Assembly (NCBI GenBank): GCA_017469115.1
Contig: JAFUGY010000075.1
Location: forward strand, 1 to 55,723
Length of the DNA: 55,723 nucleotides
Origin: Oscillospiraceae bacterium
GTDB taxonomy: Bacteria; Bacillota; Clostridia; Oscillospirales; Oscillospiraceae
Direction of reading: 5' to 3'
Part shown: piece by piece, positions 41,326 through 55,287 of the stretch
Layout: each line of letters begins with the position of its first letter
How positions within the stretch are numbered: the first letter of the stretch is position 1
Translations under genes and position numbers: made by a program
The notes under the pieces: model-generated
Told to the model about the DNA's origin: nothing
The model's database searches: none
The model's input: the letters and a program-made list of their open reading frames with translations, nothing else

Positions 41326-41505
41326 TCACAGATGTTGGTCTCTCTTAACTTTGTCGTAGAAATGGAACAGGATGGGCTCCATTTTGGCGGTAAGCTTCAT
41401 ATCCAGATTGAAGAAATATGCTGCAAAGGTCACCACGAAGAGACAACAAACAGTAGCAATCAGCTTCAGGAACACAATGCAAAGGGTTTTTCCAACAGAT
41501 TTCAT
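41326..41505 (-). CDS. Small single-helix membrane protein, last gene of the dehydratase cassette
   Basis: A 59-residue protein not in longer ORF lists. It starts MKSVGKTLCIVF, has one long hydrophobic helix (LIATVCCLFVVTFAAYFF, residues about 15-32) and a short charged C-terminus (ILFHFYDKVKRDQHL). GAGGAG lies seven bases before the ATG, which begins 12 bases after the previous stop; the terminator follows six bases after the TGA. Placement strongly suggests translation in the cassette. Two adjacent cysteines lie in the helix. I recognise no family; membrane tethering of the dehydratase-like complex is a guess. Confidence 0.75.
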   Translation of the reverse strand: MKSVGKTLCIVFLKLIATVCCLFVVTFAAYFFNLDMKLTAKMEPILFHFYDKVKRDQHL

Positions 41506-41517
41506 GTTTTTCTCCTC

Positions 41518-43092
41518 TCACCACGACTCGGCATCATTCAGCTCTTCAAGAGACGGATCGACAGGTTCTTCCTGCATGACAGTGCGCATATAGCTGTTGA
41601 TCTGATCACGAACACCCTGCCGGGAAATGACACGTGGGTCAAACAGATCGTGACTGACCCATACCAAATGGATCCCCTTTTCTCTCGCACGCTCTTCAAA
41701 GAGGCCGTGCATGCCATCCAGCGCCTTGCAGCTCATATGCTCCCAGAGAATAACCATGTCAGCATTGAATTCCTCCACGATTTCCCAGAGCTCGTCCAAA
41801 AGGACTTTATAGCCGCCGTGAGTGCGGTTGCGCATAATCATGTTCTCAGTGAGCCAAGCTATGTCGTAAATGGCCTGCTCGCGGTTTTCCGGTGTGTCTG
41901 TATCGGCAATCATTTTGGTGGATACCATGGAGAGCATATCCGTCAGTGGGACAATACCCCAGCAGTTAAGCAGCCAGACCAGAAAATCCATATAATAATG
42001 GGACTGTACCCCCCAGACAATTGCCCGGTGGCGATACTCATTGGAGGCCATTTTCTTTTTCTGATAAGCTCTCTCCGCGAGAGCAGTAATCTTCCGATCG
42101 GCATCCTGAAAGGCGGCTACTCTGCCACTGATGGCCATATAGTTTGTCTCGGTATAGAGAGCAAGGTTGGACCCAAAGACTTGAGGATACTGGGTTTTGT
42201 TCATATCCAACCATTCCATCCGGCATTTGGTGGCATAGTTAACGCGTTTGGCACATTCAAAATAATGAGTCCAATCCCACTTTTCACCGGTATGTTCCTC
42301 GATGAAGGCAATGGCATTGCGGATTTCCTGTGCAGCATATTCCTGTACGTCAGGCTCCTGATGGCGCAAAGGCGTGGCAAGCTGGAAAATAGGGATCCCA
42401 TCTTCCAATTCCAGACGCTTGAAAATAACGCTGTTGCCCATGAGGGAACCATCACACGTAGTGTTGCACTGGACGGCGCATTTGCCGAGGACGGGCGCAT
42501 CGTCATCGATGGAGACACCGGCCTCAGCTTCCGGCATGGGACAGACATCGCCAGCCAGGCCGTATTCCTGGGCAATATCGATGTAGTGAAGAGCGGCACG
42601 CTGATTCAGCAAAACCGGAATATAAGTGGAAGCAATTTCTCGGCTGAGGGGAACAAGGGTTGGAAAGCCCATCATGAGAGACTGCATCTCATTTTCATCG
42701 ACAAGAACCACTTTATCGGAAAAATCCTTGTCGTTGTCGATGCGCCTGTCACCTCGGAAAAGTTTATCCAACAGCTTGGCAACATCTTCGATAATGAGAT
42801 CCTGCTCGACATGGCAGATCCGCAGATGCTCGCCTCGAAGCCCTTGCGTATGTCGGTCAACCATCATGGGGACAGCCAAATAGTTCGCCATCCAGCGATA
42901 GCGGAACAAGGCTTTGATATTACGTGGTTTGGAAAGCACCACGCGAAAAATGGTCACCCAGTTGTGCAGCCAACGGGAATAGTCATAAAGAGTGTCGGGC
43001 ACACCGCGCCATTCACGACGTCTTCTGACACGCCCATCGGTATATAAACTGCCGAGATGATCGGCTCCGATACGTTTCTCCGGATTTTTCAT
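41518..43092 (-). CDS. 2-hydroxyacyl-CoA dehydratase-family protein, large subunit
   Basis: A 524-residue member of the HgdA/HgdB/BcrB-BcrC superfamily that binds a [4Fe-4S] cluster. Candidate cluster cysteines occur in GDVCPMPEAEAG (about 183), LGKCAVQCNTTCDG (about 204-214) and WEHMSCKALDG (about 463). The ATG overlaps the stop of the partner subunit (ATGA). Known members dehydrate 2-hydroxyacyl-CoA or reduce benzoyl-CoA after activation by an ATP-driven HgdC-type protein, which is not in this window. It is longer than most family members and its substrate is unknown. Closest neighbours are fatty-acid genes. Confidence 0.82.
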   Translation of the reverse strand: MKNPEKRIGADHLGSLYTDGRVRRRREWRGVPDTLYDYSRWLHNWVTIFRVVLSKPRNIKALFRYRWMANYLAVPMMVDRHTQGLRGEHLRICHVEQDLIIEDVAKLLDKLFRGDRRIDNDKDFSDKVVLVDENEMQSLMMGFPTLVPLSREIASTYIPVLLNQRAALHYIDIAQEYGLAGDVCPMPEAEAGVSIDDDAPVLGKCAVQCNTTCDGSLMGNSVIFKRLELEDGIPIFQLATPLRHQEPDVQEYAAQEIRNAIAFIEEHTGEKWDWTHYFECAKRVNYATKCRMEWLDMNKTQYPQVFGSNLALYTETNYMAISGRVAAFQDADRKITALAERAYQKKKMASNEYRHRAIVWGVQSHYYMDFLVWLLNCWGIVPLTDMLSMVSTKMIADTDTPENREQAIYDIAWLTENMIMRNRTHGGYKVLLDELWEIVEEFNADMVILWEHMSCKALDGMHGLFEERAREKGIHLVWVSHDLFDPRVISRQGVRDQINSYMRTVMQEEPVDPSLEELNDAESW

Positions 43093-44285
43093 TTGTCCCC
43101 TCCGTGAATCTTTTTAATTTCGATGCTTTCAATAAAGGCCTGAATGCGTGTGCGCAGCTGTCCGGTTCCGGACGTGCTGTAAGGCCTGTCGATCGAGAGG
43201 ACAGGATATCCATACTCATCATGCATGACATGGGAGCCCACCATGCGTTCGTAAGCCCAGGGATCGCAGAATTTGATCTGCTCATAGATTATCCCGTCAG
43301 CCCCGTATTCCTTGGCAAGCTGATCGACATAAGAACGCCGGCCAAGAATCTTCTGTTGATTCATATAACGAGGGCATTGCCCACGCATCATATACTGGCG
43401 GCAAATCTGAATAAGAGCATCTTCGTCCTCAGTAAGAACAATCTCATCCCGACCGGGGAAGGAACCGTAGCAATAACGGTCGGCACAGACGAAAGCGCCG
43501 GTGCTTTCCACCAGTTTTACAAAGTCGGGGTCATCAATTTCGGATCCGACCAGGAGTACACGGGCACGGAAATTGTTGATGGGGTCGGGCTGGCGGGTTT
43601 TTAGCTCTTCCAGCGTCTCCTCGAGCTTATCCACAAGGAGATACTTGGGAGCGGCATAGGTTGCAAGCGTAATGACAGAATACTCATAGCCGGTCAGCGT
43701 TGGCTTTTCCCCTTTACGGAAGTCTCCAATCGCCCTGACGAGACGGCAGATACGGTTGTGCTCCTGGACAGCGCGGCGTATGGAGGCATCAGACACATCG
43801 ATACCGAATTTATCCTGCAGAGGCTTAAGAATATGATTTTTGCACTGGAGAACATAAAGATTCAAGCCGTTATCGTCAGCCTTCATGGGGATTTCCATAT
43901 GCTCATAGAAGAAATTTGGTTTGCCTTCATCCATGGTGTGCAGAAGCTCCATATTCTCAGCTACGCGATTGATCATACTGCATCCATCTGGTGTGATGAG
44001 ACAGTCCGCAAAATTATATCCGCCCTCAATGGCTCTTTCAAGGAGAGCTCGACTATATTCGCAGAGGAAACTGGTAAGGTAGTAGGTTGCCATTTCCATA
44101 GAGCTTGTACGAGGTGCACGAAGACGGGAGGAGAACAGTCCTTCGAGATTCAAAAGCGGCTCAGGAGTATTCTCACAAATATAGGCAACACATTTTTTCC
44201 CGTCATTTCTCGCCTGCTGGACCAAGTCATTATTGGCATCCTGCAGGAGGTCTTCAAAATATTGTAAATACTTCAGATCTTTCAT
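43089..44285 (-). CDS. 2-hydroxyacyl-CoA dehydratase-family protein, small subunit
   Basis: A 398-residue homologue of HgdB/BcrC-type subunits. Conserved features are LITPDGCSMINR (about 97-108), GQCPRYMNQQKILGR near 307 and YEQIKFCDPWAYERM near 335, whose cysteines could bind a [4Fe-4S] cluster. A C-terminal LSIDRPYSTSGTGQLRTRIQAFIE resembles the family's closing helix. It is first in the cassette with the larger subunit (ATGA overlap) and a small membrane protein. No promoter box is clear in the 305-base gap ahead. Function is family-level only. Confidence 0.82.
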   Translation of the reverse strand: MKDLKYLQYFEDLLQDANNDLVQQARNDGKKCVAYICENTPEPLLNLEGLFSSRLRAPRTSSMEMATYYLTSFLCEYSRALLERAIEGGYNFADCLITPDGCSMINRVAENMELLHTMDEGKPNFFYEHMEIPMKADDNGLNLYVLQCKNHILKPLQDKFGIDVSDASIRRAVQEHNRICRLVRAIGDFRKGEKPTLTGYEYSVITLATYAAPKYLLVDKLEETLEELKTRQPDPINNFRARVLLVGSEIDDPDFVKLVESTGAFVCADRYCYGSFPGRDEIVLTEDEDALIQICRQYMMRGQCPRYMNQQKILGRRSYVDQLAKEYGADGIIYEQIKFCDPWAYERMVGSHVMHDEYGYPVLSIDRPYSTSGTGQLRTRIQAFIESIEIKKIHGGDK

Positions 44286-44590
44286 GTGTTTCAGGTCATC
44301 CTTCTGTTTTCAAAACGGTTCAACATGCTACAATTTGCTTAATATTCATCTCATTCCCTTACTACAGCCAGGTTTCAGGTCTGCAACAGTAGGGGCATAT
44401 TTTTCCATACTGGATAGTGGGATAAGCACCTCTCTAAGTATTTGTCGCCTCCTTTACGATTTTCTTTTTTCAATTCTGGCATGAAACTGACGTCTAAAAT
44501 GACCAGATTCTCTTGAATCACTATGACAAAATCAAAGAGACTTTTATATTTAAAAGCTCAGCTCCCGCCTTTTTGGCAGGAGCTCAGCCA
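44286..44590. other. Gap between hypA and the dehydratase cassette
   Basis: Contains the hypA terminator at its right end (44552-44583). Elsewhere on the minus strand is a strong AAAGGAGG ribosome-like site (near 44448) with no good start codon behind it, and a weak 20-codon frame starting MEKYAPTV at 44408. No convincing promoter boxes and no RNA gene were found. The dehydratase genes must be read from a promoter here or by read-through. Confidence 0.6.
44552..44583 (-). terminator. Terminator after hypA
   Basis: GCTCCCGCC (44561-44569) and GGCAGGAGC (44575-44583), one wobble, followed on the minus strand by a T-run (44552-44555). Nearly the same hairpin sits after the dehydratase cassette. 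Confidence 0.85.
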
Positions 44591-44932
44591 TTAATATCCC
44601 TCGATTTCAGTAATCGTCATGTCCCGGCCGGAAACCGGGTTGAGCTTCAGGCTGTTGCAGACAGGACATACCAGTTTTTCAAGATCTGCCTCGAAGGATG
44701 CCCCGCAATCCAGACACTGAGCGACTCCCGGTACGGAACGGATCAGCAGTTTTGTTTCGGCAAAGGGCGTGCCGTCAATCACAGCTTCCCAGCAATCTGC
44801 CATAAAATTGGGCATCACACCGCTCAGCATTCCGATATCCAACGAAACGGAATTCACACCCTCCAACTCATTGTCTTCGGCAATCTGCTTCACCTTTTTC
44901 AGCAGAGCATCACACAATCCAAGCTCATGCAT
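44591..44932 (-). CDS. hypA: HypA nickel metallochaperone-like protein
   Basis: A 113-residue protein with the nickel-binding N-terminus MHELGLCDALL and a zinc domain with CLDCG and CPVC (about 74-95), the full HypA pattern. HypA inserts nickel into [NiFe]-hydrogenase and sometimes urease, working with HypB. No hydrogenase or other hyp gene lies here. Its start overlaps the stop of the 893-residue flavoprotein gene (TAATG), so it is the last gene of the PAI operon; why that operon needs it is unexplained. Confidence 0.85.
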   Translation of the reverse strand: MHELGLCDALLKKVKQIAEDNELEGVNSVSLDIGMLSGVMPNFMADCWEAVIDGTPFAETKLLIRSVPGVAQCLDCGASFEADLEKLVCPVCNSLKLNPVSGRDMTITEIEGY

Positions 44933-47613
44933 TACTTTGCAACCACATTCTTGACAACTTTCGGAACTTTCTTCACAATGTCAACCGCTGCATGAATGGG
45001 AAGTGTCTCAAAGGTTCTTGCGTGCCAATCCCGGACCTTACGGAGATGAATGGCATCGAACTTGCAGCGGGTTGTGCAGATACCACAGCCAACACAGAGA
45101 TATTCATCCACTTTGGTTGCACCGCACCCGAGGCATCTGGCGCATTCCTTTTTCACCTGTTCTTCGGTAAACGTCACACGTGCATCCGAGAAGGTCTTTG
45201 CTTTTTCCTTATTGTAGCCGTGAACCTGACGGTGGTCTTTATCAAAGCTGGCAACATCAAGCTGTACATGTTCCTTATCCAGTGCACGATATACACGGCG
45301 ATCACGGCCCATGGTAAGCGTCTGCCCCTGATGGACATAGCGGTGAAGTGAAATAGCAGCTTCTTTTCCGGCAGCGATGGCATTGATGGCAAAGCTCGGG
45401 CCGGTATAAGCATCGCCACCGACGAAGATGTCGGGCTCAGCAGTCTGATACGTCAGGGAATCTGCTTCGGCTGTTCCTTTTTTCGTCACGGTCAGGGAGC
45501 CGACATCCAGCGTGCCCCAATCAACTCTCTGGCCAATGGCTCCGATGACACTGTCGACCTTAATGGTGGCAAACTTTCCGGTGCCGACAGGCTTCCGTCG
45601 GCCTTTTTCATCGGGCTCACCAAGCTCCATAATCTCCATACGAAGCCCGGAAACCTTTCCGTTTTCTCCTTGGATCTCAACAGGATTGCTGAGGAATCGG
45701 AACTGGACGCCCTCTTCCATTGCTTCATGAACTTCTTCCGGATCGGCGGGCATTTCTTCCTGAGAACGACGATAAATAATGTAAGTTTCCTTTGCGCCAA
45801 GCCTTACAGCTGTACGGCAGACATCCATTGCCACATTGCCCGCACCGATGACTGCACAGCGCTTGCCGACAAAGGGTTTTTTGCCGAGGTTTACTTCCCG
45901 CAGGAAGTCAACACCGCCGTAAACACCTTCCAGTTCTTCTCCAGCGATTCCGATGGGCGCAGATTTCTGAGCCCCTATGGCCAGATAGAATCCTTTATAA
46001 CCCTCTTCGCGAAGCTGTTGAATGGTAACATCTTTTCCGACTTCTACACCGCATTTAAAGGTAACACCCATAGCGCGGATAATATCGATTTCAGCATTGA
46101 GGACATCTTTTTCCAGCCGGAAGTTCGGAATGCCAAGCGTCAGCATGCCGCCGGGAACAGGGTTACGGTCGAAAACGGTCACGGGATAGCCGCGCTTAGC
46201 AAGATAATAGGCACAGCTCAGGCCGGCAGGACCGGAGCCGATGATGGCAATTTTCTCCGTGAAGGGCTTTCCGGTCTGATTGAGCATGGGAGGAATTCTG
46301 CGTGTTTCCTGATTTAGGTCATGATCGGCAATAAAGCGCTTTACTTCATCGATGGCAACCGCTTCGTCCACCGAGCCGCGAGTGCATTCTGCTTCGCACT
46401 TCTTGTTGCAGATTCGCCCACAGACAGCCGGGAGAGGATTCTCTTCGCGAATGAGATCCAATGCATCTTCATACCGCCCCTGAGCTGCAAGCTTCAAATA
46501 GCCCTGAACCGGAATATGGGCCGGGCAGGCAACCTTGCAGGGAGCTGTACCCGTCGGCACAACGTCCTCGCGGTTTTCACGGTAATTGGGGTTCCATGCC
46601 TTTTTGGTAGCGATGTGATCCGCTAACTTGACATAGTTCGGCAGTGAAGTATCTGCTGTGGTGCAGAGTTTTTGTCCGAGTTTAAGCGCATTTGCAGGGC
46701 AAACCTCAACACACTGAGCACAAGCAACACACTTTGCTTCATCCACCTCTGCCACATAATTGGACCGGATAGCATCGCGTGCGCCGAACATCAATCCGAC
46801 ACGCAAACCAAAGCAGGCGCAGGCACAGCAATTGCAGATGGCTGCGCTATCTCCTGCTTCTTCTATATTCGGGATGTCATGCATCAAACCATTGGCTTCT
46901 GCACGTTGGATGATTTCCAGTGCTTCTTCCCTGGTAATGGCACGGGCTCGGCCGGTACGAATATAATGCTCTGCGCCTTTGCCCATCTGGATACACATCT
47001 CATCTGCGAGATGGCCGCACCCGTCGTTGATGCTGGTGCGCGAGGCTCGGCAGGAACAGGGCGAGACACTGAAGGTGTCATACTTGTTGAGGTAATAGCT
47101 GAGTTTTTCAAAGTCGTTGGCGGCGGGATTATCTTTGATCGCGCTCTCTACCGGGACAACACGCATCAGCCCATAGCCGCTCGGAAGCAGAGGAGACATG
47201 GTCTGCATCCGAATGCGGGTGTACTCCTCAAAGGCACGCCCAACCTCAGGATGCGTTTTCAGAAGCTCCTGATTGTTGACCAGCATTTCCATGATGCCGG
47301 GTGCAAAAATCTGCATGAAATAGCGATTTTCTTTGGTAGCAGGATCAATCGTCCAGCGGAAAACTCCGATCCAGGCAAGATGCTGGGCGAGGCGATCCAC
47401 CTCTTCCGGGCTTTTCCCGGTTTTCTGAGCGAGGTAAGCTGTTGTGCGTTCTTTCCGAAGCCCGGCAGCAATGGCTACGTCGGCCTCATCGTCGCTAACA
47501 ATGCTTGCAAGGCTGTAATATTCCGGTGCGTTTTCATCAATTTTATTGACTACGCCGGTAAGCCCACCGACGATGTGGCACAGCTTAACGATTTTCGGTC
47601 TTAATTCTGCCAT
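44932..47613 (-). CDS. Multi-cluster Fe-S/FAD/NAD(P) electron-transfer protein
   Basis: An 893-residue cytoplasmic protein. Residues 1-130 look like a winged-helix fold. Cys-rich segments lie at 185-200 (SPCSCRASR) and 260-267 (CNCCACAC). A ferredoxin motif CVACAQCVEVCP is at 295-306. A GltD-type N-terminal Fe-S domain spans 355-415 (CKVACPAHIP, CGRICNKKCEAEC). FAD and NAD(P) sites are at 457-475 (IIGSGPAGLSCAYYLAKRG) and 588-605 (VIGAGNVAMDVCRTAVRLGA). A C-terminal ferredoxin pair is CARCLGCG and CVGCGICTTRC. The GltD-like core suggests NAD(P)H oxidation feeding ferredoxin-type acceptors. Partners are the flanking flavoproteins. Confidence 0.82.
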   Translation of the reverse strand: MAELRPKIVKLCHIVGGLTGVVNKIDENAPEYYSLASIVSDDEADVAIAAGLRKERTTAYLAQKTGKSPEEVDRLAQHLAWIGVFRWTIDPATKENRYFMQIFAPGIMEMLVNNQELLKTHPEVGRAFEEYTRIRMQTMSPLLPSGYGLMRVVPVESAIKDNPAANDFEKLSYYLNKYDTFSVSPCSCRASRTSINDGCGHLADEMCIQMGKGAEHYIRTGRARAITREEALEIIQRAEANGLMHDIPNIEEAGDSAAICNCCACACFGLRVGLMFGARDAIRSNYVAEVDEAKCVACAQCVEVCPANALKLGQKLCTTADTSLPNYVKLADHIATKKAWNPNYRENREDVVPTGTAPCKVACPAHIPVQGYLKLAAQGRYEDALDLIREENPLPAVCGRICNKKCEAECTRGSVDEAVAIDEVKRFIADHDLNQETRRIPPMLNQTGKPFTEKIAIIGSGPAGLSCAYYLAKRGYPVTVFDRNPVPGGMLTLGIPNFRLEKDVLNAEIDIIRAMGVTFKCGVEVGKDVTIQQLREEGYKGFYLAIGAQKSAPIGIAGEELEGVYGGVDFLREVNLGKKPFVGKRCAVIGAGNVAMDVCRTAVRLGAKETYIIYRRSQEEMPADPEEVHEAMEEGVQFRFLSNPVEIQGENGKVSGLRMEIMELGEPDEKGRRKPVGTGKFATIKVDSVIGAIGQRVDWGTLDVGSLTVTKKGTAEADSLTYQTAEPDIFVGGDAYTGPSFAINAIAAGKEAAISLHRYVHQGQTLTMGRDRRVYRALDKEHVQLDVASFDKDHRQVHGYNKEKAKTFSDARVTFTEEQVKKECARCLGCGATKVDEYLCVGCGICTTRCKFDAIHLRKVRDWHARTFETLPIHAAVDIVKKVPKVVKNVVAK

Positions 47614-47653
47614 AGATCTTTCTCCATCTCCATAGTCATAATATATATTTTCC

Positions 47654-48844
47654 TTACATGATGGGGATTTTTACCTTGACATCACTGAGCGGCCAGGCCG
47701 AGCAGAGATGATACCAGCCCATTTCGCGATCCATACGACGGCGGTTTTCTTCATCCGGCAGGGTATACACTGCTCCGGAGAGGACGTGAGCACGGCAAAG
47801 TCCGCACTCGCCGTTGCGGCAATGGGTATTGAGCAGAATACCAGCCCGTTCGATGGCAACTGCGATGGATTCATTGGCCTTTGCAGGAATGACATCTTCC
47901 TGAACACCGCGTACCACAGTGATGTTAAATGTTTTGCCGATGGCTTCCTGCGGGTAGCCGGGGACCTTCGTCACATCAGCGGGGTTGTTGACCACATCGT
48001 GACGGAATCTGCGCTGTTCCACGCCGAGCTCTTTCAATGCCTTATCGACAAAGAGATACATGGCACGGGGGCCACAGAACATGTAGGTGCAATCGGGCGT
48101 TGAATACTTCTGAATAATCTCTTTGGAGATAAAGCCTTTCTCTCCCTGCCAATCCGGATCATCGGAGAGGACATGGACGATTTTGACATCCTTGCAGGCT
48201 TTTTCCATAGCGGCAAGCTCTTCCTTCAGGACGATATCGTCTGACTTGACGGAACCATAGAGCACCGTGAGCTTGCAGCCCTGCATTTTGCCGTTGGCAA
48301 CCTCTTTTGCCATGCTCATAAACGGCGTGATGCCGGAACCGCCTGCCAGCGCAACAATTTCCCTGGAATCGCGGAGCGGTTCCCAATAGAAGGTGCCGAA
48401 GGGAAGAGCGCCTGTCAGCACATCGCCTTCATGGACGTTTTCGAACATATAGTCCGGCACGAGATAAGGCACATTGCGCCGGATGGTCACTTCAAAGAAG
48501 GGATGGTCTGTCCGCGCTTCATAAGGAGCGGAAGAGATGGAATAAGGCCGACTGAGGGTACTCTCCCCGATTTTGAAGCGGAAATTGACATACTGCCCGC
48601 ACTGGAACACCGGGATATGCCCGTCGGTGCTCTCGAAGCGGAAGGTTTTACTGGTGGGAGAGGCATCCTTTACGGAGACACATTTAAACTGCATCTCATA
48701 AGGATGCAGGGCATCTGCCAGATTGCGGATGGGATCATCCGGCTTTGGCAGCGGGGAGGCGTTGGCATAGCTGTCCCTTCTGAGTTTGGTGACGCGGGAC
48801 GCACCTCCTGCGTCTTTGAGGAGACCGTGAACAGAAATGCTCAT
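47654..48844 (-). CDS. Ferredoxin reductase with C-terminal 2Fe-2S domain
   Basis: A 396-residue electron carrier. After a 50-residue extension, the FAD-binding barrel has RPYSISSAP (about 97-105). The NAD(P) domain has AGGSGITPFMSMAKE (about 164-178) and MFCGPRAMYLF. The C-terminal plant-type ferredoxin domain shows CRNGECGLCRAHVLSG (345-360) and a fourth Cys in HLCSAWPL. Module order FAD-NAD-2Fe2S resembles Hcr and phthalate dioxygenase reductase. The gene overlaps the upstream flavoprotein by 4 bases (ATGA). It probably passes electrons from NAD(P)H to an operon partner. Confidence 0.9.
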   Translation of the reverse strand: MSISVHGLLKDAGGASRVTKLRRDSYANASPLPKPDDPIRNLADALHPYEMQFKCVSVKDASPTSKTFRFESTDGHIPVFQCGQYVNFRFKIGESTLSRPYSISSAPYEARTDHPFFEVTIRRNVPYLVPDYMFENVHEGDVLTGALPFGTFYWEPLRDSREIVALAGGSGITPFMSMAKEVANGKMQGCKLTVLYGSVKSDDIVLKEELAAMEKACKDVKIVHVLSDDPDWQGEKGFISKEIIQKYSTPDCTYMFCGPRAMYLFVDKALKELGVEQRRFRHDVVNNPADVTKVPGYPQEAIGKTFNITVVRGVQEDVIPAKANESIAVAIERAGILLNTHCRNGECGLCRAHVLSGAVYTLPDEENRRRMDREMGWYHLCSAWPLSDVKVKIPIM

Positions 48845-50391
48845 TTTCTTCCCTCCTTCTGTTTTTTCTCAAGATCTTCGCGAACGGCTTTTGCTGCCGC
48901 ACGGCCGTTGGTAATCTGCGGGCCCATGCCGTCGCCCGACATGCCGTGGGCACCGGCAAATTCCAGACCTTCGATAAAGTGGTCTTCCTCCTTCATGCCG
49001 AGGCGGGCAACGGCATGGTCAGCCATGGCGTGGGAGTACCCGTAAATCTGGCCTTTCCAGGCGCCCACATAGTGGGAAACGGAAACCGGGGTGGAGATTT
49101 CGATCTCTTCAATGTTTTTGCGGAAATCCACATGGCCGACTTCGCGGATGTAGGTTTCCATCATCTCATCGGCCAGGCGGCGTTTGAGATCGTAATAATC
49201 CTCTTCCTTCACAGAAAGCCAAGGCTCAATCGGCACGAGAACCGTGATGGAAAGCTGGGTGTAGCCTTCGGGGGTGCAACTCGGGTTGGCATAATTGAGG
49301 CAGATGGTGGTGATATAGTTATACGGCTCGGTGAGGTTGGAATAGTTCTGCCAGATTTTGTTGGTGTCCATCGTCTCGCCGGAGAAGGTGGAGTAGTTGG
49401 AGACACCGTTTTCTTCCGGCGTGCCTTTGAGGATCATCATCACGGAAACCGGCGCAACCGCAAGCTTGCGGCCGTTCACCATCTTGATGGCGCCGGCAGG
49501 AACTTCGCTGAGGGGCTCAATCATCTGGGTGTAGACCTTGTTTGGATACGGGCCGGAAATCACATAGTCACAGGAAATCTCATCCCCGCGCCGGGTGCGT
49601 ACGCCCGTAACCTTGCCGTTTTTCACGAGGATTTTCTCCACTTCCTGGTTGAACTCATACTGGGCGCCGTTTTCTTCACACTTTGCCTGCAGCTTCATGC
49701 TCATCTCGTGAGAGAAACCTCTGCAGACGTAGGAGCCCGTGAAATAGTCCGCCATCAGGAAGGCATAAATCGTGAAGGGCAGATCATCCATCCGGTTGCC
49801 GACGTAAATCCAGTAGGGTGTCAGCATCTCCACGACCTTTTGGGGGAAGTTGTAGGTATTCATAACTTCGGTAGCGCTGTAGCCGATGGTTTTGACGAAA
49901 TCGGGATGCTTCAGAAGCATCTGCACCTTGCTCATGGGATTAACGGAGAGATAGTTCATACTGTCGTATACACGGCGGCAGAGCTTCATGAAATCCAGCA
50001 CCTTCTCATACATGCCGGGCACCTGCGCATCAATCTCTTTGGCCATGGTCTCATAACCGTCATGCAGGGTAATGTCGATGCCGGAATTGGGCAGAACCGC
50101 ACGGTAGCACTCCGGCACGGGCAGCCAGTCGATATCAACGCCCATGTCATCGAAGAACTGGCCGACTTTCAGCCGGGCTCCCGGCTTTCCGATTGACATC
50201 ATCTCATGCAGTGTGGCTTCGATTTCAAAGCCGTCACGCATATAGTCGGTTGCGAGACCGCCTGGCATGTTGTGCTTTTCAAGAATCAGAATATCCTTGA
50301 TGCCCCATGCCTGGAGCTGCAGGCAGGCCGACATACCGGCCAATGCGCCGCCGATGATGACCACCTGATAATGGTCTTTGTAAAAACTCAT
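48841..50391 (-). CDS. Phytoene desaturase/retinol saturase-like flavoprotein
   Basis: A 516-residue FAD protein with an N-terminal dinucleotide fold (VVIIGGALAGMSACLQLQAWG, of which GGALAG replaces the usual GxGxxG), EKHNMPGGLATDY and a C-terminal GAHGMSGDGMGPQITNGRAAA that closes the FAD site. The family contains desaturases, isomerases and RetSat, which reduces a double bond. The ATG at 50391 follows AGGAAA; an in-frame ATG 54 bases earlier lies in the intergenic part and is rejected. Gene order after the PAI homologue suggests action on the same acyl chain, possibly reduction of a conjugated bond. Confidence 0.8.
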   Translation of the reverse strand: MSFYKDHYQVVIIGGALAGMSACLQLQAWGIKDILILEKHNMPGGLATDYMRDGFEIEATLHEMMSIGKPGARLKVGQFFDDMGVDIDWLPVPECYRAVLPNSGIDITLHDGYETMAKEIDAQVPGMYEKVLDFMKLCRRVYDSMNYLSVNPMSKVQMLLKHPDFVKTIGYSATEVMNTYNFPQKVVEMLTPYWIYVGNRMDDLPFTIYAFLMADYFTGSYVCRGFSHEMSMKLQAKCEENGAQYEFNQEVEKILVKNGKVTGVRTRRGDEISCDYVISGPYPNKVYTQMIEPLSEVPAGAIKMVNGRKLAVAPVSVMMILKGTPEENGVSNYSTFSGETMDTNKIWQNYSNLTEPYNYITTICLNYANPSCTPEGYTQLSITVLVPIEPWLSVKEEDYYDLKRRLADEMMETYIREVGHVDFRKNIEEIEISTPVSVSHYVGAWKGQIYGYSHAMADHAVARLGMKEEDHFIEGLEFAGAHGMSGDGMGPQITNGRAAAKAVREDLEKKQKEGRK

Positions 50392-50470
50392 CCGAATCGT
50401 TTTCCTTTCTAAACAAGTTCCAAGGGGCTGTGCGCTGAAAAGCACACAGTCCCTTCGATTTTTTCAAAGA

Positions 50471-51856
50471 TTAAAAGAATCTCTCAACCAGCTCGCGGGA
50501 GTATTCAGCTGTTTCGTCCATATCGCCGAAGGACATGATCTCACCGGCATAGAAGGTGTCATACTTATCCTGCATGGCTTCGACTTTGTCATACCAGCCG
50601 GAGGCATAATCTTCTGTATAGACATGGGGGAAGTAATAGACAGACCAGGCGTTCTCCACCGTCTCGGCGGGGTTGTGCATCGTCTTGAGGTCATCCAGAA
50701 CCATCTTGTTGCACTCTTCATAAGAGATTTCTTTCATATTCTTATGAGTACGCAGGGCGTAGGTGGTGATCATCTGATCGATGTCTTCCTTCCAACGGCG
50801 GTAGTAGACCATCAGATGGCCGAGGCGTTCCTTCACCATGTTGTCAAAGACATAGTAGGAGATCTCCGGGTGATTCTCCGGCTTCGTCGTAACTGCCTGC
50901 ACAGTATATCTCTCATAATCGATCTTGGAGAAGAGGGCTTTTTCATCCTCACGGGCGTCGGCATAGTCAATAAAGCCGTTGGTCTCGCCACGGTTGCCGT
51001 CGCCGCAATAGAGAGGAGCAGTGACGATCAGCTTGTCAAACTCTTCCACTTCCCCGTTGACGGTGATGAAGACCTTCCCGTCTTTCCGCTCGACCTTGGT
51101 GATGTTGCTGTTGAGTTTTGCGGAATGCTTCAGCTTGGCATCGAGGCACTCCCAGATGTACTGCGTGCCGTTCTTCCACGTCCAGAGGTTGACGTTGACG
51201 AAGTTCATGGTGGTCTGGAAATCGAGATACTTCAGAACGTAAGCTGCAGGGATTTCATCAAAATAGCCGTAACCGAAGGAGGTGTAGGGTCCGATCCAGA
51301 TGTCCTGAATGAGCTCGCAGCCGTTTTTCTCACAGAAGGTTTTGAACGGGAGGGCAAGATCTTTCAGATTGGGGTTGGGGAACTGTACTCTCTCGCGGCC
51401 GGGGGTAACAGCATAACCGTCGCATCTGCCTTCGGCAACGCCGCGGTGACCGTTGACATCATAGCCTCTGTACTTGGTTTCCAGAATTTCACCGAACTTT
51501 TTCACCTGGCTCTTCATTTTGAGCAGGCGGGGAATCTTGGCGATGTTCTTTTTGGGCTCAAAGGGCTCAATCACATCACCGGCGCTGTTTTTGTAGTTCC
51601 GGTTGAGTTTCGGGCCGTCGTGGGTGATGCCGCAGAACTCTTCGACATCGTGCACGGCATAGTAAGAAGGAACGCCCATAATGGCACCCATCTCGTATCT
51701 CTTTCCTTTATAGGTGGGTGACCAGCATTTGCCGCCGACACGGTCGGACTTTTCATAGATCACATAGTTCTCATAACCCTTTTTTTCGAGATACATGCCG
51801 GCGGAAAGCCCGGCAGGGCCGCCGCCGATGATTGCCACACGTACATTCTTGTCCAT
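50471..51856 (-). CDS. Polyunsaturated fatty acid isomerase (PAI) homologue, FAD-dependent
   Basis: A 461-residue flavoprotein. I recall Cutibacterium acnes PAI, which turns linoleate to trans-10,cis-12 conjugated linoleate using FAD; this protein shares GGKCWSPTYKGKRYEMG and GAIMGVPSY near residues 45-70, ETKYRGYDVNGH, FGYGYFDEIPAAYVLKYLD, HLMVYYRRW, YFPHVYTEDYASGWY and the C-terminal FYAGEIMSFGDMDE. The N-terminal fold is IIGGGPAGLSAGMYLEKKG. Length agrees with PAI (about 425) plus roughly 35 residues. GGAGG lies nine bases before the ATG. It is first in the operon and diverges from the acyl-ACP genes. Confidence 0.85.
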   Translation of the reverse strand: MDKNVRVAIIGGGPAGLSAGMYLEKKGYENYVIYEKSDRVGGKCWSPTYKGKRYEMGAIMGVPSYYAVHDVEEFCGITHDGPKLNRNYKNSAGDVIEPFEPKKNIAKIPRLLKMKSQVKKFGEILETKYRGYDVNGHRGVAEGRCDGYAVTPGRERVQFPNPNLKDLALPFKTFCEKNGCELIQDIWIGPYTSFGYGYFDEIPAAYVLKYLDFQTTMNFVNVNLWTWKNGTQYIWECLDAKLKHSAKLNSNITKVERKDGKVFITVNGEVEEFDKLIVTAPLYCGDGNRGETNGFIDYADAREDEKALFSKIDYERYTVQAVTTKPENHPEISYYVFDNMVKERLGHLMVYYRRWKEDIDQMITTYALRTHKNMKEISYEECNKMVLDDLKTMHNPAETVENAWSVYYFPHVYTEDYASGWYDKVEAMQDKYDTFYAGEIMSFGDMDETAEYSRELVERFF

Positions 51857-52026
51857 TTTTCTTAATCCTCCGAGATAAAAATTCTTATTCTGATTTTTAT
51901 ATGGAATAAAAGCTCAGACTGTGGTATATTATAACTGATTCAAGGAAAAAAAGCTACAGGTATCTTTTCTTTTATCCCTTAAAATTATATATTTTATATC
52001 GTTATTTCAAAAAGGAGTGCTTTGCT
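51857..52026. promoter_or_regulatory. Divergent promoter region, PAI operon and acyl-ACP operon
   Basis: 170 AT-rich bases between divergent starts. A TATAAT (51928-51933, minus) is the best -10 for the PAI operon but its -35 is poor. Plus-strand boxes are ambiguous. Weak promoter consensus fits a regulated, activator-dependent region; no operator was identified. Confidence 0.45.
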
Positions 52027-53370
52027 ATGCGTTTTACCGGGTTCGAAGAATTGCTTTCGCACTATGCCGGCATTTCTCCGGAAGCTCCGGCTCTTTTCTA
52101 TGACGACGGTGAGATAAAAACCTGCTCTTTCTCCGCTCTTTATGAGACGGTCCAAGAACGCGCCGATGAATTTCGCGCCTCCGGCAACCGCTGCATCGGC
52201 ATTCTCTCTGACGGGAGCTTTGATTGTGTTGTGACCATTCTGGCGGCGAATATTGCCGGGCTGCAGGTTGTGATGCTCGATGCCAATGCCCCTCTTGCTT
52301 CGCTGAAAGGGTGCATCCCCTATGCGGATATTGATTGTCTCTGGGGTGATGAGGAACTTTGCGAAGAGCTCAGCCCCTTCCTTACCCACGGACCGGCAGG
52401 AGACTATACCGACAGAATCCTCTTTTTCACCTCGGGAACGACTTCGAGTTCGAAGGCGGTTACGCTGACCGGGAAAAGCCTGATGAGCTCTGCCTGGAAC
52501 GGATCGCAGAAGCTGCCGCTCAAGCCGGAGGATACGCTGTTGTGTATGCTGCCGCTGGGGCACGTTTTCGGGTTTGTCTGCGGCCTTTTGTGGGGGTTGA
52601 GCTGCGGGGCTTCCGTTGCGCTCGGGCGCGGTGCCAGGCATTATATGGATGACTGTCTCTGCTTTCGGCCGACGGTGCTTTCCGCCGTGCCTTCGCTTTT
52701 GGCCTTTCTGCTGGGGCACGACTGTTTGAACAGCTCCCTGCGGCTGATCCTCGTAGGCGCGGGAGACTGCCCGAGCAGGCTTCTGGATGCGGTAAGAGCG
52801 AAGGGCATTCAGGTAAGCTTCGGCTACGGCCTGACGGAGACCAGCTCCGGCGTCGCCATCAGCACAAAAGGCGACCCTTATGCCATGGAAATCTGCCCGG
52901 ATGACGAAATGATCATTGCGGAAGACGGCGAAATTCTGATCAAGGCGCCGACCTGCCTCATGCAGGGATATTACAAAATGCCGGAAGCAACGGCCGAAAC
53001 CGTGAAAGACGGCGTGCTGTATACCGGTGATCTCGGCCGGATCGATGCCGACGGGCTTTTGCACATCACGGGACGGAAAAAGGATATCCTCGTCCTGCAG
53101 GACGGCACCAAAATCTTCCTCCCGGAATATGAGGAGAAGCTTGCCGCTGCGTTGGGCACGGGAGAACTTGCCGTGTTGCTGAAAAACAACCGGCCCGTGC
53201 TGGTCGTCAGCACCGGAGAGATGAGCGAAGAGGAAATCCGCCGGAAGATCCGCCCGGTAACGGATGAGTATCCTCGCGGGCAACAGATCACGGAAATTCT
53301 TTTGCGGTCTGCTCCCCTCCCCCGCACGGCGACCGGCAAAATACAGCGATATAAAATCAATCTTCATTGA
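52027..53370 (+). CDS. Adenylate-forming acyl ligase (acyl-ACP/acyl-CoA synthetase-like)
   Basis: A 447-residue AMP-binding enzyme that would activate a carboxylic acid as acyl-AMP. The P-loop FFTSGTTSSSKAV lies near residue 137. The motif YGLTETSSG is near 270, YTGDLGRID near 337, and LPRTATGKIQRY holds the C-terminal lysine. It is somewhat short for FadD (about 560), so a compact ligase loading the carrier protein encoded next. AAGGAG lies nine bases before the ATG. The carrier gene starts 22 bases after its stop. Confidence 0.85.
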   Translation: MRFTGFEELLSHYAGISPEAPALFYDDGEIKTCSFSALYETVQERADEFRASGNRCIGILSDGSFDCVVTILAANIAGLQVVMLDANAPLASLKGCIPYADIDCLWGDEELCEELSPFLTHGPAGDYTDRILFFTSGTTSSSKAVTLTGKSLMSSAWNGSQKLPLKPEDTLLCMLPLGHVFGFVCGLLWGLSCGASVALGRGARHYMDDCLCFRPTVLSAVPSLLAFLLGHDCLNSSLRLILVGAGDCPSRLLDAVRAKGIQVSFGYGLTETSSGVAISTKGDPYAMEICPDDEMIIAEDGEILIKAPTCLMQGYYKMPEATAETVKDGVLYTGDLGRIDADGLLHITGRKKDILVLQDGTKIFLPEYEEKLAAALGTGELAVLLKNNRPVLVVSTGEMSEEEIRRKIRPVTDEYPRGQQITEILLRSAPLPRTATGKIQRYKINLH

Positions 53371-53392
53371 GGAACATACGGAGGATCCAGAC

Positions 53393-53650
53393 ATGACAAG
53401 AGAAGAAGTAAGCGCAAAAATTAAAAAGATTATTTTTGACAGCGTCCCCGACCGGGTGCCGGAAGTGATTGAAGAGGACACGGTAATCAACAATGACATG
53501 GCCATTGATTCCATGGGCTTTATCCTTGTGATCTGCCGCTGTGAAGCGGAACTCGGGGTGAAAATTCCCGAGCGGAAATGGCAGAAGCTCAGCACCTTCG
53601 GCGAAGTGGTGGACGAGTTTATGCTCCAGCTGGCCAAAGCGGGAAAATGA
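53393..53650 (+). CDS. Acyl carrier protein
   Basis: An 85-residue acidic helical carrier. The phosphopantetheine attachment site is in DMAIDSMGFI, serine near residue 40, with the classic D-S-M/L motif. GGAGG precedes the ATG. It overlaps the thioesterase gene (ATGA). It is a pathway-specific carrier, not the house-keeping AcpP, since no fab genes are near. It likely holds the fatty acyl chain on which the neighbouring enzymes act. Confidence 0.9.
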   Translation: MTREEVSAKIKKIIFDSVPDRVPEVIEEDTVINNDMAIDSMGFILVICRCEAELGVKIPERKWQKLSTFGEVVDEFMLQLAKAGK

Positions 53651-54369
53651 GCGTCTTCCGTAGATCCGTTAAAATACGGGACTGTGACGTTTCGTTTAAC
53701 CGGAAGCTGAGACCGTCCTGCCTGTTTTCGATGCTGCAGGAGGCATCGATCGATCACACGGAGGAACTCGGAGCCGGACGGGACAAAACCCTCGACCGGG
53801 GCTTTTTGTGGGTAATTGCCCGCCAGCGGGTGGAAATCCGACGACTGCCGGAATACGATGAGCATCTCACGCTGGAATCGTGGCCGGGGGAAATGATGCA
53901 TGTGTTTTTCCCCCGCTATTACAGAATGCTGGACGCCTCCGGTGCCGCCCTGCTCTCGGCCAGCGCACTGTGGATGCTGATCGATGCGGAAAAGCGGACC
54001 TTCATCTTTCCGCAACAGGAGGGGATCTTCGTCCCCGGAGAAACGACGGGAAATGAAATTTCTCTCCCGTCCGGCATCAGAGCGATGCCTGCGGAAGAGA
54101 AACGGAAGTTCGCGGTACCGTACAGCCATACCGATATCAACGGGCACATGAACAACATCCGGTATATCGACGAATGTGAAAACATGATCCCGCAGACGGC
54201 TGCAGAAAAGGATCTGAAAGAGATCGCTGTGGAATATGCCCATGAGATCCGCCTCGGAGAGGAGATGGAGATCTCTCTCGGCCGTGGGAGCGACGGGCAG
54301 TACTTTTTCTCCGGTGACGGAGAGATGCACTACTTTTCGATGCACTTGCAATACAGCGACCGGGAATGA
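53647..54369 (+). CDS. Acyl-ACP thioesterase (FatA/TE family)
   Basis: A 240-residue double hot-dog thioesterase. The first half contains FSMLQEASIDHTEELGAG and RGFLWVIARQRVEIRRLP. The second half has SHTDINGHMNNIRYIDECE, holding the catalytic Asn/His region, and FAVPYSH. It releases free fatty acid from acyl-ACP. The ATG at 53647 overlaps the ACP stop; the longer ORF start at 53578 is inside acp and is rejected. Stop is followed by a terminator at 54440. Confidence 0.9.
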   Translation: MSVFRRSVKIRDCDVSFNRKLRPSCLFSMLQEASIDHTEELGAGRDKTLDRGFLWVIARQRVEIRRLPEYDEHLTLESWPGEMMHVFFPRYYRMLDASGAALLSASALWMLIDAEKRTFIFPQQEGIFVPGETTGNEISLPSGIRAMPAEEKRKFAVPYSHTDINGHMNNIRYIDECENMIPQTAAEKDLKEIAVEYAHEIRLGEEMEISLGRGSDGQYFFSGDGEMHYFSMHLQYSDRE

Positions 54370-54597: not shown

Positions 54598-54981
54598 TCA
54601 TTCGTATTTTGCCCGCAGCTTTTCCAAAAACCTGTCGTTGGAGATGATGCAGCGTTTGTGAATGCCCTCTCCGATTTTTTCTTTGGCAGACCAGGCTGCG
54701 ACGGAAAACGTCAGCACCCGTTTGTCAACGGCTATCAATTTGCTGTCGACCCATACCTTTTCGCCCATCGGCGTCGCCGCGAGATGGTCGACCTCCAGGC
54801 GGATGCCCACGGTACCCTGCCCCTCCTCCAGGAAAGGCTCTACGGACTCTTTGCAGGCCTTTTCCATCAGAGCAATCATACTCGGGGTTGAGAACACATC
54901 CAGCAATCCGCTGCCGACGGACGAGGCAACATTGCTTTGATCCACCATCACTTCTGCATAACCTTTGATCCCGATTTCCAT
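54598..54981 (-). CDS. Hot-dog thioesterase (FlK-like)
   Basis: A 127-residue single hot-dog protein. The N-terminal GIKGYAEVMVDQSNVASSVGSG, then STPSMIALMEKACKESVE, the EGQGTVGIRLEVDHLAATPMGEKV strand and DRFLEKLRAKYE resemble fluoroacetyl-CoA thioesterase FlK-type proteins. The ATG at 54981 follows AGGAGG and lies 18 bases after the predicted transcript start, so the longer ORF is rejected. Related proteins hydrolyse acyl-CoA esters; substrate unknown. Monocistronic and convergent to the acyl-ACP operon. Confidence 0.85.
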   Translation of the reverse strand: MEIGIKGYAEVMVDQSNVASSVGSGLLDVFSTPSMIALMEKACKESVEPFLEEGQGTVGIRLEVDHLAATPMGEKVWVDSKLIAVDKRVLTFSVAAWSAKEKIGEGIHKRCIISNDRFLEKLRAKYE

Positions 54982-55287
54982 AAACCAATCCTCCTGTTTT
55001 TCCAGAGTATAAAACAAAAAGTCCGGGATGGCAAGATGAACTTCATCAATTCTTATAAGCAATCTTAACCAATTCTTGCATGCAAACCATAGACTCTATA
55101 AAAGACTGAATTGCTCCAAACTTTGTTTTTACATTATATGTTATTGTTTGAACATTTTGAAAGACTGCTCAACAACATATTCTTCACAATAATTTTTGTT
55201 TCATTCATCCGGGCGTATGCCCGGTAATAATTAAACCAAAACTCTGCGGTTAAACAGGCGGGAGTGGGAGGAGGCCGTGTTAAAAAC
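54982..55287. other. AT-rich gap with one promoter and a GC hairpin
   Basis: Holds the FlK promoter (55006-55034), a perfect CCGGGC/GCCCGG hairpin (55209-55224, four-base loop) and the palindrome beginning at 55280. No convincing coding frame was found. Confidence 0.65.
55006..55034 (-). promoter_or_regulatory. Promoter of the FlK-like thioesterase gene
   Basis: Minus strand TTGCCA (55029-55034), 17 bases, TATACT (55006-55011), about 25 bases before the ATG. Confidence 0.8.

Follow-up and report, generated by a model that had tools for sequence, protein, structure and literature searches.

Ruminal biohydrogenation removes dietary polyunsaturated fatty acids, and milk fat depression is associated with its trans-10 branch. 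The gene system considered here, headed by a PAI-type polyunsaturated fatty acid isomerase, is a candidate for chemistry of this kind; it lies on a stretch of 55,723 nucleotides (the window; contig JAFUGY010000075.1 of assembly GCA_017469115.1, Oscillospiraceae bacterium). The closest characterised enzyme is PAI of Cutibacterium acnes, which converts linoleate to trans-10,cis-12-conjugated linoleic acid (CLA). In the accessible part of PMC7339423, trans-10,cis-12-CLA is the main product found in C. acnes culture, and the organisms responsible for the trans-10 pathway are said not to have been identified unambiguously. Linoleic acid is saturated through conjugated intermediates by several enzymes, CLA-HY, CLA-DH, CLA-DC and CLA-ER, in Lactobacillus plantarum, but that route runs via hydroxy and oxo acids and uses enzymes other than those of the window (PMC13365329, accessible part).

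For the reduction of conjugated dienes, the closest described protein is IsrA, a putative isoprene reductase of Acetobacterium wieringae that is encoded in an operon with HypA and HypB (PMC10134865, here and below as far as its accessible part goes). IsrA, the reference for clade 9 of that paper, has about 900 residues, of which about 270 at the N-terminus contain no known domain; six cysteines with two CxC motifs, PF14691 and PF07992 domains, two further 4Fe-4S sites and hypA/hypB neighbours are described, and reduction of unfunctionalised conjugated C=C bonds is proposed (PMC10134865). A. wieringae has hyp genes without a NiFe hydrogenase, and its isr operon includes a separate ferredoxin. 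Neither 'linole' nor 'isomerase' occurs in the text of that paper.

In the window, a full-length homologue of C. acnes PAI heads a tightly packed minus-strand operon with the order PAI, RetSat-like flavoprotein, 2Fe-2S reductase, IsrA-type Fe-S flavoprotein and HypA, opposite a divergent operon for an acyl ligase, an acyl carrier protein (ACP) and a thioesterase (Table 1). The locus is read here as a system by which polyunsaturated fatty acids are hydrogenated anaerobically (probability about 0.7): the gene set is real and strongly co-conserved, and can be read as biohydrogenation coupled to a class of diene reductases that was proposed recently. Whereas C. acnes is compared at the enzyme level only, the window PAI leads a gene system with reductases. 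The original prediction held that no described system has this set of genes. No description of the set was found in the literature searched, a weak negative, subscription papers being mostly outside the reach of the search; PAI homologues in rumen metagenome-assembled genomes had already been reported (PMC10019597, accessible part).

PAI and the conserved six-gene core

The window PAI matches PDB 2b9w (C. acnes PAI) with E 9.1e-135 and 453 bits, residues 2-461 aligning to 4-423 with 222 of 420 aligned residues identical (53%), and this is its sole strong full-length match in a PDB search. By insertions it is about 40 residues longer than the 424-residue C. acnes chain. R88, F168 and F193 of 2b9w, which we take to be key substrate-channel residues, are unchanged in every one of the 85 distinct aligned homologues, the window protein among them.

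A scan of genome contigs, with search patterns derived from the window protein, gave 302 relatives, of which the best 80 (77.9-95.9% identity) were used; the counts therefore describe the closest relatives. L001 is the window itself, and L087, L088, L102 and L103 repeat L018, L015, L025 and L055. With 25 of the 80 loci excluded from the both-sides count for short flanks, 51 of the 55 loci with enough flank on both sides carry all six core genes (PAI, RetSat-like, 2Fe-2S reductase, ligase, ACP and thioesterase) in this divergent arrangement, which argues that the grouping is more than chance. The original prediction had made co-conservation decisive, and these six genes are clearly co-conserved. 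All six are also present in L081, where the ligase operon is co-directional. Where 1700 bases or more are available downstream of PAI, the RetSat-like gene is present (72/72 loci); with 3400 bases or more, a 2Fe-2S reductase lies behind it in 61 of 62 loci, and with 2800 bases or more on the left, the ligase-ACP-thioesterase operon is found in 65/70.

Sequence motifs are kept across the core: TSG[TS]T in 67 of 68 distinct relatives of the ligase, the DS[MLQ] site in 70/70 of the ACP, D.N.H.N in the window thioesterase and 59 of 64 distinct relatives, and CX4CX2C...C in all 76 distinct 2Fe-2S reductases. Given its ACP neighbour, the ligase is probably an acyl-ACP ligase.

The same association is seen across whole genomes. 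PAI at E<=1e-30 occurs in 17 of 300 family genomes (the window's own included), 15 of them with the window type (at least 78% identity) and two with a second type (53-54% identity to the window PAI). RetSat-like proteins with 56% identity or more are encoded in 21/300 and the ligase (E<=1e-60) in 16/300, in each case including all 15 genomes with window-type PAI; the hypergeometric p values, uncorrected for kinship, are 7e-21 (RetSat-like) and 2e-24 (ligase). In the additional ligase genome, G276, the gene lies on a contig of 4711 bases. Both operons are kept in G109 and G264 on different contigs, the gene maps showing PAI-RetSat-2Fe-2S and ligase-ACP-thioesterase for G109 and ligase-ACP-thioesterase for G264. 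In broader samples PAI is rare (E<=1e-60): besides the window's genome, it was found in 1 of 390 genomes of a class sample and 0 of 298 of a phylum sample.

In one genome of another family, G549, all six genes recur in this arrangement; within the family of G549, PAI occurs in 1 of 13 genomes. The G549 PAI is 64% identical to C. acnes PAI and 57% to the window PAI, which ties the array to the characterised enzyme. These identities bear on the view that the substrate is some other unsaturated gut compound (a plant terpenoid, carotenoid or similar) and not a fatty acid. Carotenoid enzymes are the nearest relatives of the RetSat-like family, RetSat-2Fe-2S pairs that exist without PAI imply that substrates may vary, and IsrA is proposed to reduce a hydrocarbon (PMC10134865, accessible part); but 53% identity to a proven fatty acid isomerase, the conserved presumed site residues and the bridging PAI of G549, together with an ACP, an acyl-ACP thioesterase and an acyl ligase that point to fatty acyl chains, make a non-fatty-acid substrate very unlikely.

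Recent transfer as the source of the high PAI identity was considered and set aside on the basis of four-fold-site comparison. Identity to the window at these sites over 53 loci (repeat loci omitted, and also L086, which is no repeat) is 0.50 for PAI, 0.49 for RetSat, 0.49 for ACP, 0.42 for the 2Fe-2S reductase, 0.40 for the ligase and 0.37 for the thioesterase, against 0.37-0.39 expected from codon usage; this comparison indicates that PAI is strongly constrained. Some later transfer of the PAI-RetSat part may have occurred. Plasmid carriage was not evident, plasmid matches to PAI being limited to two records of 25-29% identity. In L020, L038, L072 and L077, the identities of the RetSat-like protein and the ligase to the window diverge (in L077, RetSat 56% and ligase 65%), as if the operons had been exchanged between lineages.

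The titles of the relatives name Oscillospiraceae or Ruminococcaceae, Clostridia or Clostridiales, and in some cases Lachnospiraceae, Coriobacteriaceae or Mogibacterium. Of the 80 record titles, 32 name a ruminant, 37 more carry a RUG/RUI code, which presumably denotes rumen genomes, and 11 have no host. Ruminants are a habitat in which biohydrogenation chemistry is known, and the origin of these records therefore fits the biohydrogenation reading.

Two candidate reductase units

Retinol saturase, CrtI and carotenoid isomerase belong to a FAD-dependent family that acts on conjugated polyenes. The protein encoded behind PAI is of this kind, but its NCBIfam scores are far under the curated cut-offs (crtI_fam 112.8 bits, with 238.1 bits required; carot_isom 96.8 bits), and since the crtI_fam cut-off is missed it is named RetSat-like only. 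Compared with the CrtI family, it is paired with its own 2Fe-2S reductase. Family genomes contain about 38 PAI-less RetSat-like genes, of which 13 (L089-L101) and that of the PAI-negative genome G003 (L129) were inspected. A 2Fe-2S reductase adjoins the RetSat-like gene in all 13 of the former, whose RetSat proteins have 67-74% and 30-34% identity to that of the window; this constant pairing indicates that the two genes form a general unit. In G003 the order is RetSat-2Fe-2S-IsrA. The RetSat-like protein is named as a candidate reductase of the conjugated chain, for which the 2Fe-2S reductase would be the electron donor.

Several of the PAI-less RetSat-2Fe-2S pairs stand beside a GntR regulator, and in L094 and L129 an IsrA-type gene comes next. 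The regulator near some of these pairs is of the GntR/FCD type (one scanned, from a cluster of seven loci), and the TetR regulator of G549 has FasR as its best, weak NCBIfam match (39 bits). Both kinds of regulator fit fatty-acid control, if weakly.

The second candidate is the protein that the original prediction had described as a multi-Fe-S NAD(P) protein next to HypA. Both genes are present, and the generic label is replaced by that of an IsrA-type architecture with a metallochaperone. The protein consists of an N-terminal domain of no recognised family, 4Fe-4S sites and a GltD-type FAD/NAD(P) domain. Its N-terminal domain matches Pfam at usable scores only through the ferredoxin part, where the best 60 of 128 PDB profile matches also lie. 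Six N-terminal cysteines (C186xC188, C207, C260xC262 and C267, with two CxC motifs) are invariant in 24 of 24 aligned IsrA-type proteins, and the six-cysteine pattern occurs in 42/43 distinct N-termini. Compared by description with IsrA of A. wieringae, the window protein is alike in length, Pfam order, two further 4Fe-4S sites, six cysteines with two CxC motifs and HypA neighbour; it differs in that its gene is linked to a fatty acid isomerase (PMC10134865, accessible part). On this shared architecture, the IsrA-type protein is a candidate conjugated-diene reductase.

IsrA-type genes (E<=1e-170) are present in 17/17 PAI genomes and in 3 of 43 sampled PAI-negative genomes (Fisher 3e-12). In the second PAI type they share an operon with PAI: L084 has the order PAI-IsrA-HypA-HypB and L085 HypB-PAI-HypB-IsrA-HypA, and neither contains any of the other four core-type partners (no RetSat and no ligase). 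These two loci are perhaps a minimal isomerase-reductase operon. The window genome has two further IsrA-type genes, at G000:C85:30923-33460 and G000:C95:4560-7064, the C95 match containing a TGA.

HypA adjoins the IsrA-type gene in the window. Of 44 distinct IsrA-type genes in the loci, 30 have HypA or HypB no more than three genes away; HypA would mature the IsrA-type protein. HypB is encoded in 17/17 PAI genomes. A NiFe hydrogenase match (PF00374) was found in 5 of these 17, over positions 1-69 only, and all five belong to the window's genus, the window's own included. Because the other 12 have no PF00374 match, a hydrogenase role for HypA is unlikely there, as in A. wieringae, with its hyp genes and no NiFe hydrogenase (PMC10134865, accessible part); in the window's own genus such a role is possible.

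Proposed route and competing readings

The proposed route, each reaction of which is predicted from sequence, would begin with PAI shifting a double bond of a free polyunsaturated acid (gut linoleic or linolenic acid) to give a conjugated diene, by homology trans-10,cis-12-CLA. Either of two electron-transfer units, or both in turn, would then reduce the diene to a monoene: in the first, electrons would pass from NAD(P)H through the FAD/2Fe-2S reductase to the RetSat-like flavoprotein, and in the second, from NAD(P)H to the IsrA-type Fe-S flavoprotein, matured by HypA/HypB. Ligase, ACP and thioesterase could form a cycle of loading, holding and release, in which the chain is activated on a dedicated ACP for reduction or uptake and is freed from it by the thioesterase. 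The cell would benefit by detoxifying membrane-active fatty acids and by disposing of electrons.

The 'conjugate, then reduce' logic of the original prediction gains support because the Fe-S protein and HypA match the architecture of a putative diene reductase and track PAI in the genomes sampled; co-conservation of the core argues in the same direction. The two dehydratase-family proteins drop out as loose neighbours, and ACP as a handle is a predicted role.

A different use of the same genes would be biosynthesis of an unusual lipid, in which PAI would yield a fatty acid with conjugated or shifted double bonds, its final geometry would be fixed by the RetSat-like protein, and ligase-ACP would pass it into membrane lipid. 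CrtI-family relatives that include isomerases and desaturases would suit this, as would a dedicated ligase and ACP for channelling. However, the thioesterase that closes the operon in 65/70 loci with room suits release, and the NAD(P)H-linked 2Fe-2S reductase and the diene-reductase-type protein suit reduction. Beyond the core, moreover, the sole genes seen in over seven loci are those for IsrA-type proteins, HypA and HypB and scattered ABC-ATPase-like ones, rarer neighbours being unannotated. Lipid synthesis is accordingly judged improbable.

Several observations weigh against the biohydrogenation reading. PAI presumably acts on free acids, which leaves the role of the ligase, ACP and thioesterase less settled; L031 and L049 lack the ligase operon, and L063 lacks both it and the 2Fe-2S reductase. 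CrtI-family enzymes of solved structure are distant from the RetSat-like protein (best PDB match 41.5 bits), which could instead be an isomerase. The reductase function of IsrA is itself putative (PMC10134865, accessible part), the IsrA-type gene lies directly behind the core in just 19 of the 55 loci tested, and genes of this type occur without PAI, in the 3 of 43 sampled genomes and, outside the sample, in G041, G208 and G298; the 43 were taken in handle order and were not kinship-matched.

The last of these points also favour the view that the system ends with the six-gene core, the block of IsrA-type, HypA and HGD genes being an unrelated neighbour. IsrA-type genes are multi-copy in several genomes, the HGD pair is near PAI in 4/80 loci, and the partial NiFe hydrogenase match in the window's genus offers a possible HypA client. 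Set against this are the presence of an IsrA-type gene in every PAI genome, as opposed to 3/43 of the sampled PAI-less ones, and the second PAI clade, which retains IsrA-HypA-HypB without the rest; a core that works alone is therefore considered unlikely.

As an anaerobic biohydrogenation system, the conserved set, found mostly in uncultured gut Clostridia, would join a known isomerase to two candidate diene reductases and would provide testable genes. The six-gene set supplies marker genes for metagenomes, and a natural role is offered for part of the widespread IsrA family. The genes behind milk-fat-relevant chemistry, whose responsible microbes are still uncertain, could be revealed. A wider reading is tentative and has less than even odds: full anaerobic hydrogenation of unactivated fatty-acid double bonds by PAI, a nickel/Fe-S, HypAB-matured IsrA-type protein and RetSat/2Fe-2S on a dedicated ACP. 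Polyunsaturated fat would then serve uncultured gut Clostridia as an electron acceptor, and the system would be the basis of the trans-10 pathway of the rumen, with its link to milk fat depression.

Gene features and neighbouring modules

All genes named in the original prediction are intact open reading frames (ORFs) within the range given there and belong to the families named. The gene for the 2Fe-2S reductase overlaps that for the RetSat-like protein, the HypA gene overlaps that for the Fe-S flavoprotein, and the ATG of the thioesterase at 53647 overlaps the ACP stop.

Table 1. Features of the PAI locus in the window (aa, amino acids)
Feature	Position	Strand	Basis or remark
Conserved 59-aa ORF, single membrane span by eye	41326..41505	-	follows HGD pair
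HGD-D family subunit a, 524 aa	41518..43092	-	PF06050 E 2e-36
HGD-D family subunit b, 398 aa	43089..44285	-	PF06050 E 2e-83
HypA metallochaperone, 113 aa, begins MHE, two CxxC	44591..44932	-	PF01155 E 1.8e-29
IsrA-type Fe-S flavoprotein, 893 aa	44932..47613	-	Fer4_20 + Pyr_redox_2 + Fer4
FAD/NAD(P) + plant-type 2Fe-2S reductase, 396 aa	47654..48844	-	FAD_binding_6, NAD_binding_1, Fer2
RetSat/CrtI-like flavoprotein, about 516 aa; longest ORF starts 50445	48841..50391	-	NCBIfam family matches
PAI-type polyunsaturated fatty acid isomerase, FAD flavoprotein, 461 aa	50471..51856	-	homology to PDB 2b9w
Divergent region between both operons, 170 bp	51857..52026		
AMP-forming acyl ligase, 447 aa	52027..53370	+	PF00501
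ACP, 85 aa, DSM phosphopantetheine site	53393..53650	+	PF00550
Acyl-ACP thioesterase, 240 aa, start chosen by eye	53647..54369	+	PF01643 E 1.8e-21, PF20791
FlK-like thioesterase	54598-55062	-	PF22636 E 4.6e-37

The region between ligase and PAI is AT-rich and contains TATAAT-like words. Among 72 such intergenic regions, no shared operator or common palindrome was found, only -10-like words.

Both HGD proteins are members of the 2-hydroxyacyl-CoA dehydratase/double-cubane reductase family (PF06050). They differ from described dehydratases in lying under every NCBIfam equivalog cut-off and in having no adjoining activator gene in the window; one such gene, named by eye, follows a paralogue in L113. 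Five cysteines of subunit a are invariant in 15 of 15 relatives and ten of subunit b in 16 of 16. The original prediction had placed these two proteins next to the PAI operon. The pair was rejected as a core member on its rarity near PAI (4/80 loci, within the available flanks) and on the multi-copy nature of the family, which reaches six or more copies in some genomes. Among the 300 family genomes, 9 have a subunit b with 70% identity or more, six of them together with PAI. In L104-L107 and L111, HGD orthologues are accompanied by IsrA-type genes and by HypA or HypB; in L108, L109, L110 and L112 they lack these neighbours. The HGD pair is treated as a neighbouring module, more loosely attached to the PAI core.

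The stretch singled out by the original prediction starts at 41326, which is the end of the small membrane ORF after the HGD pair. This ORF matched no Pfam family and lies behind subunit a in 12 of 16 loci, window included. Where it occurs (window, L104-L112, L117 and L119), it has 50-66 residues, one hydrophobic span by eye and a conserved core containing FNLD. At the other end of the locus, the FlK-like thioesterase stands just past the acyl-ACP thioesterase, and it is also present in L003.

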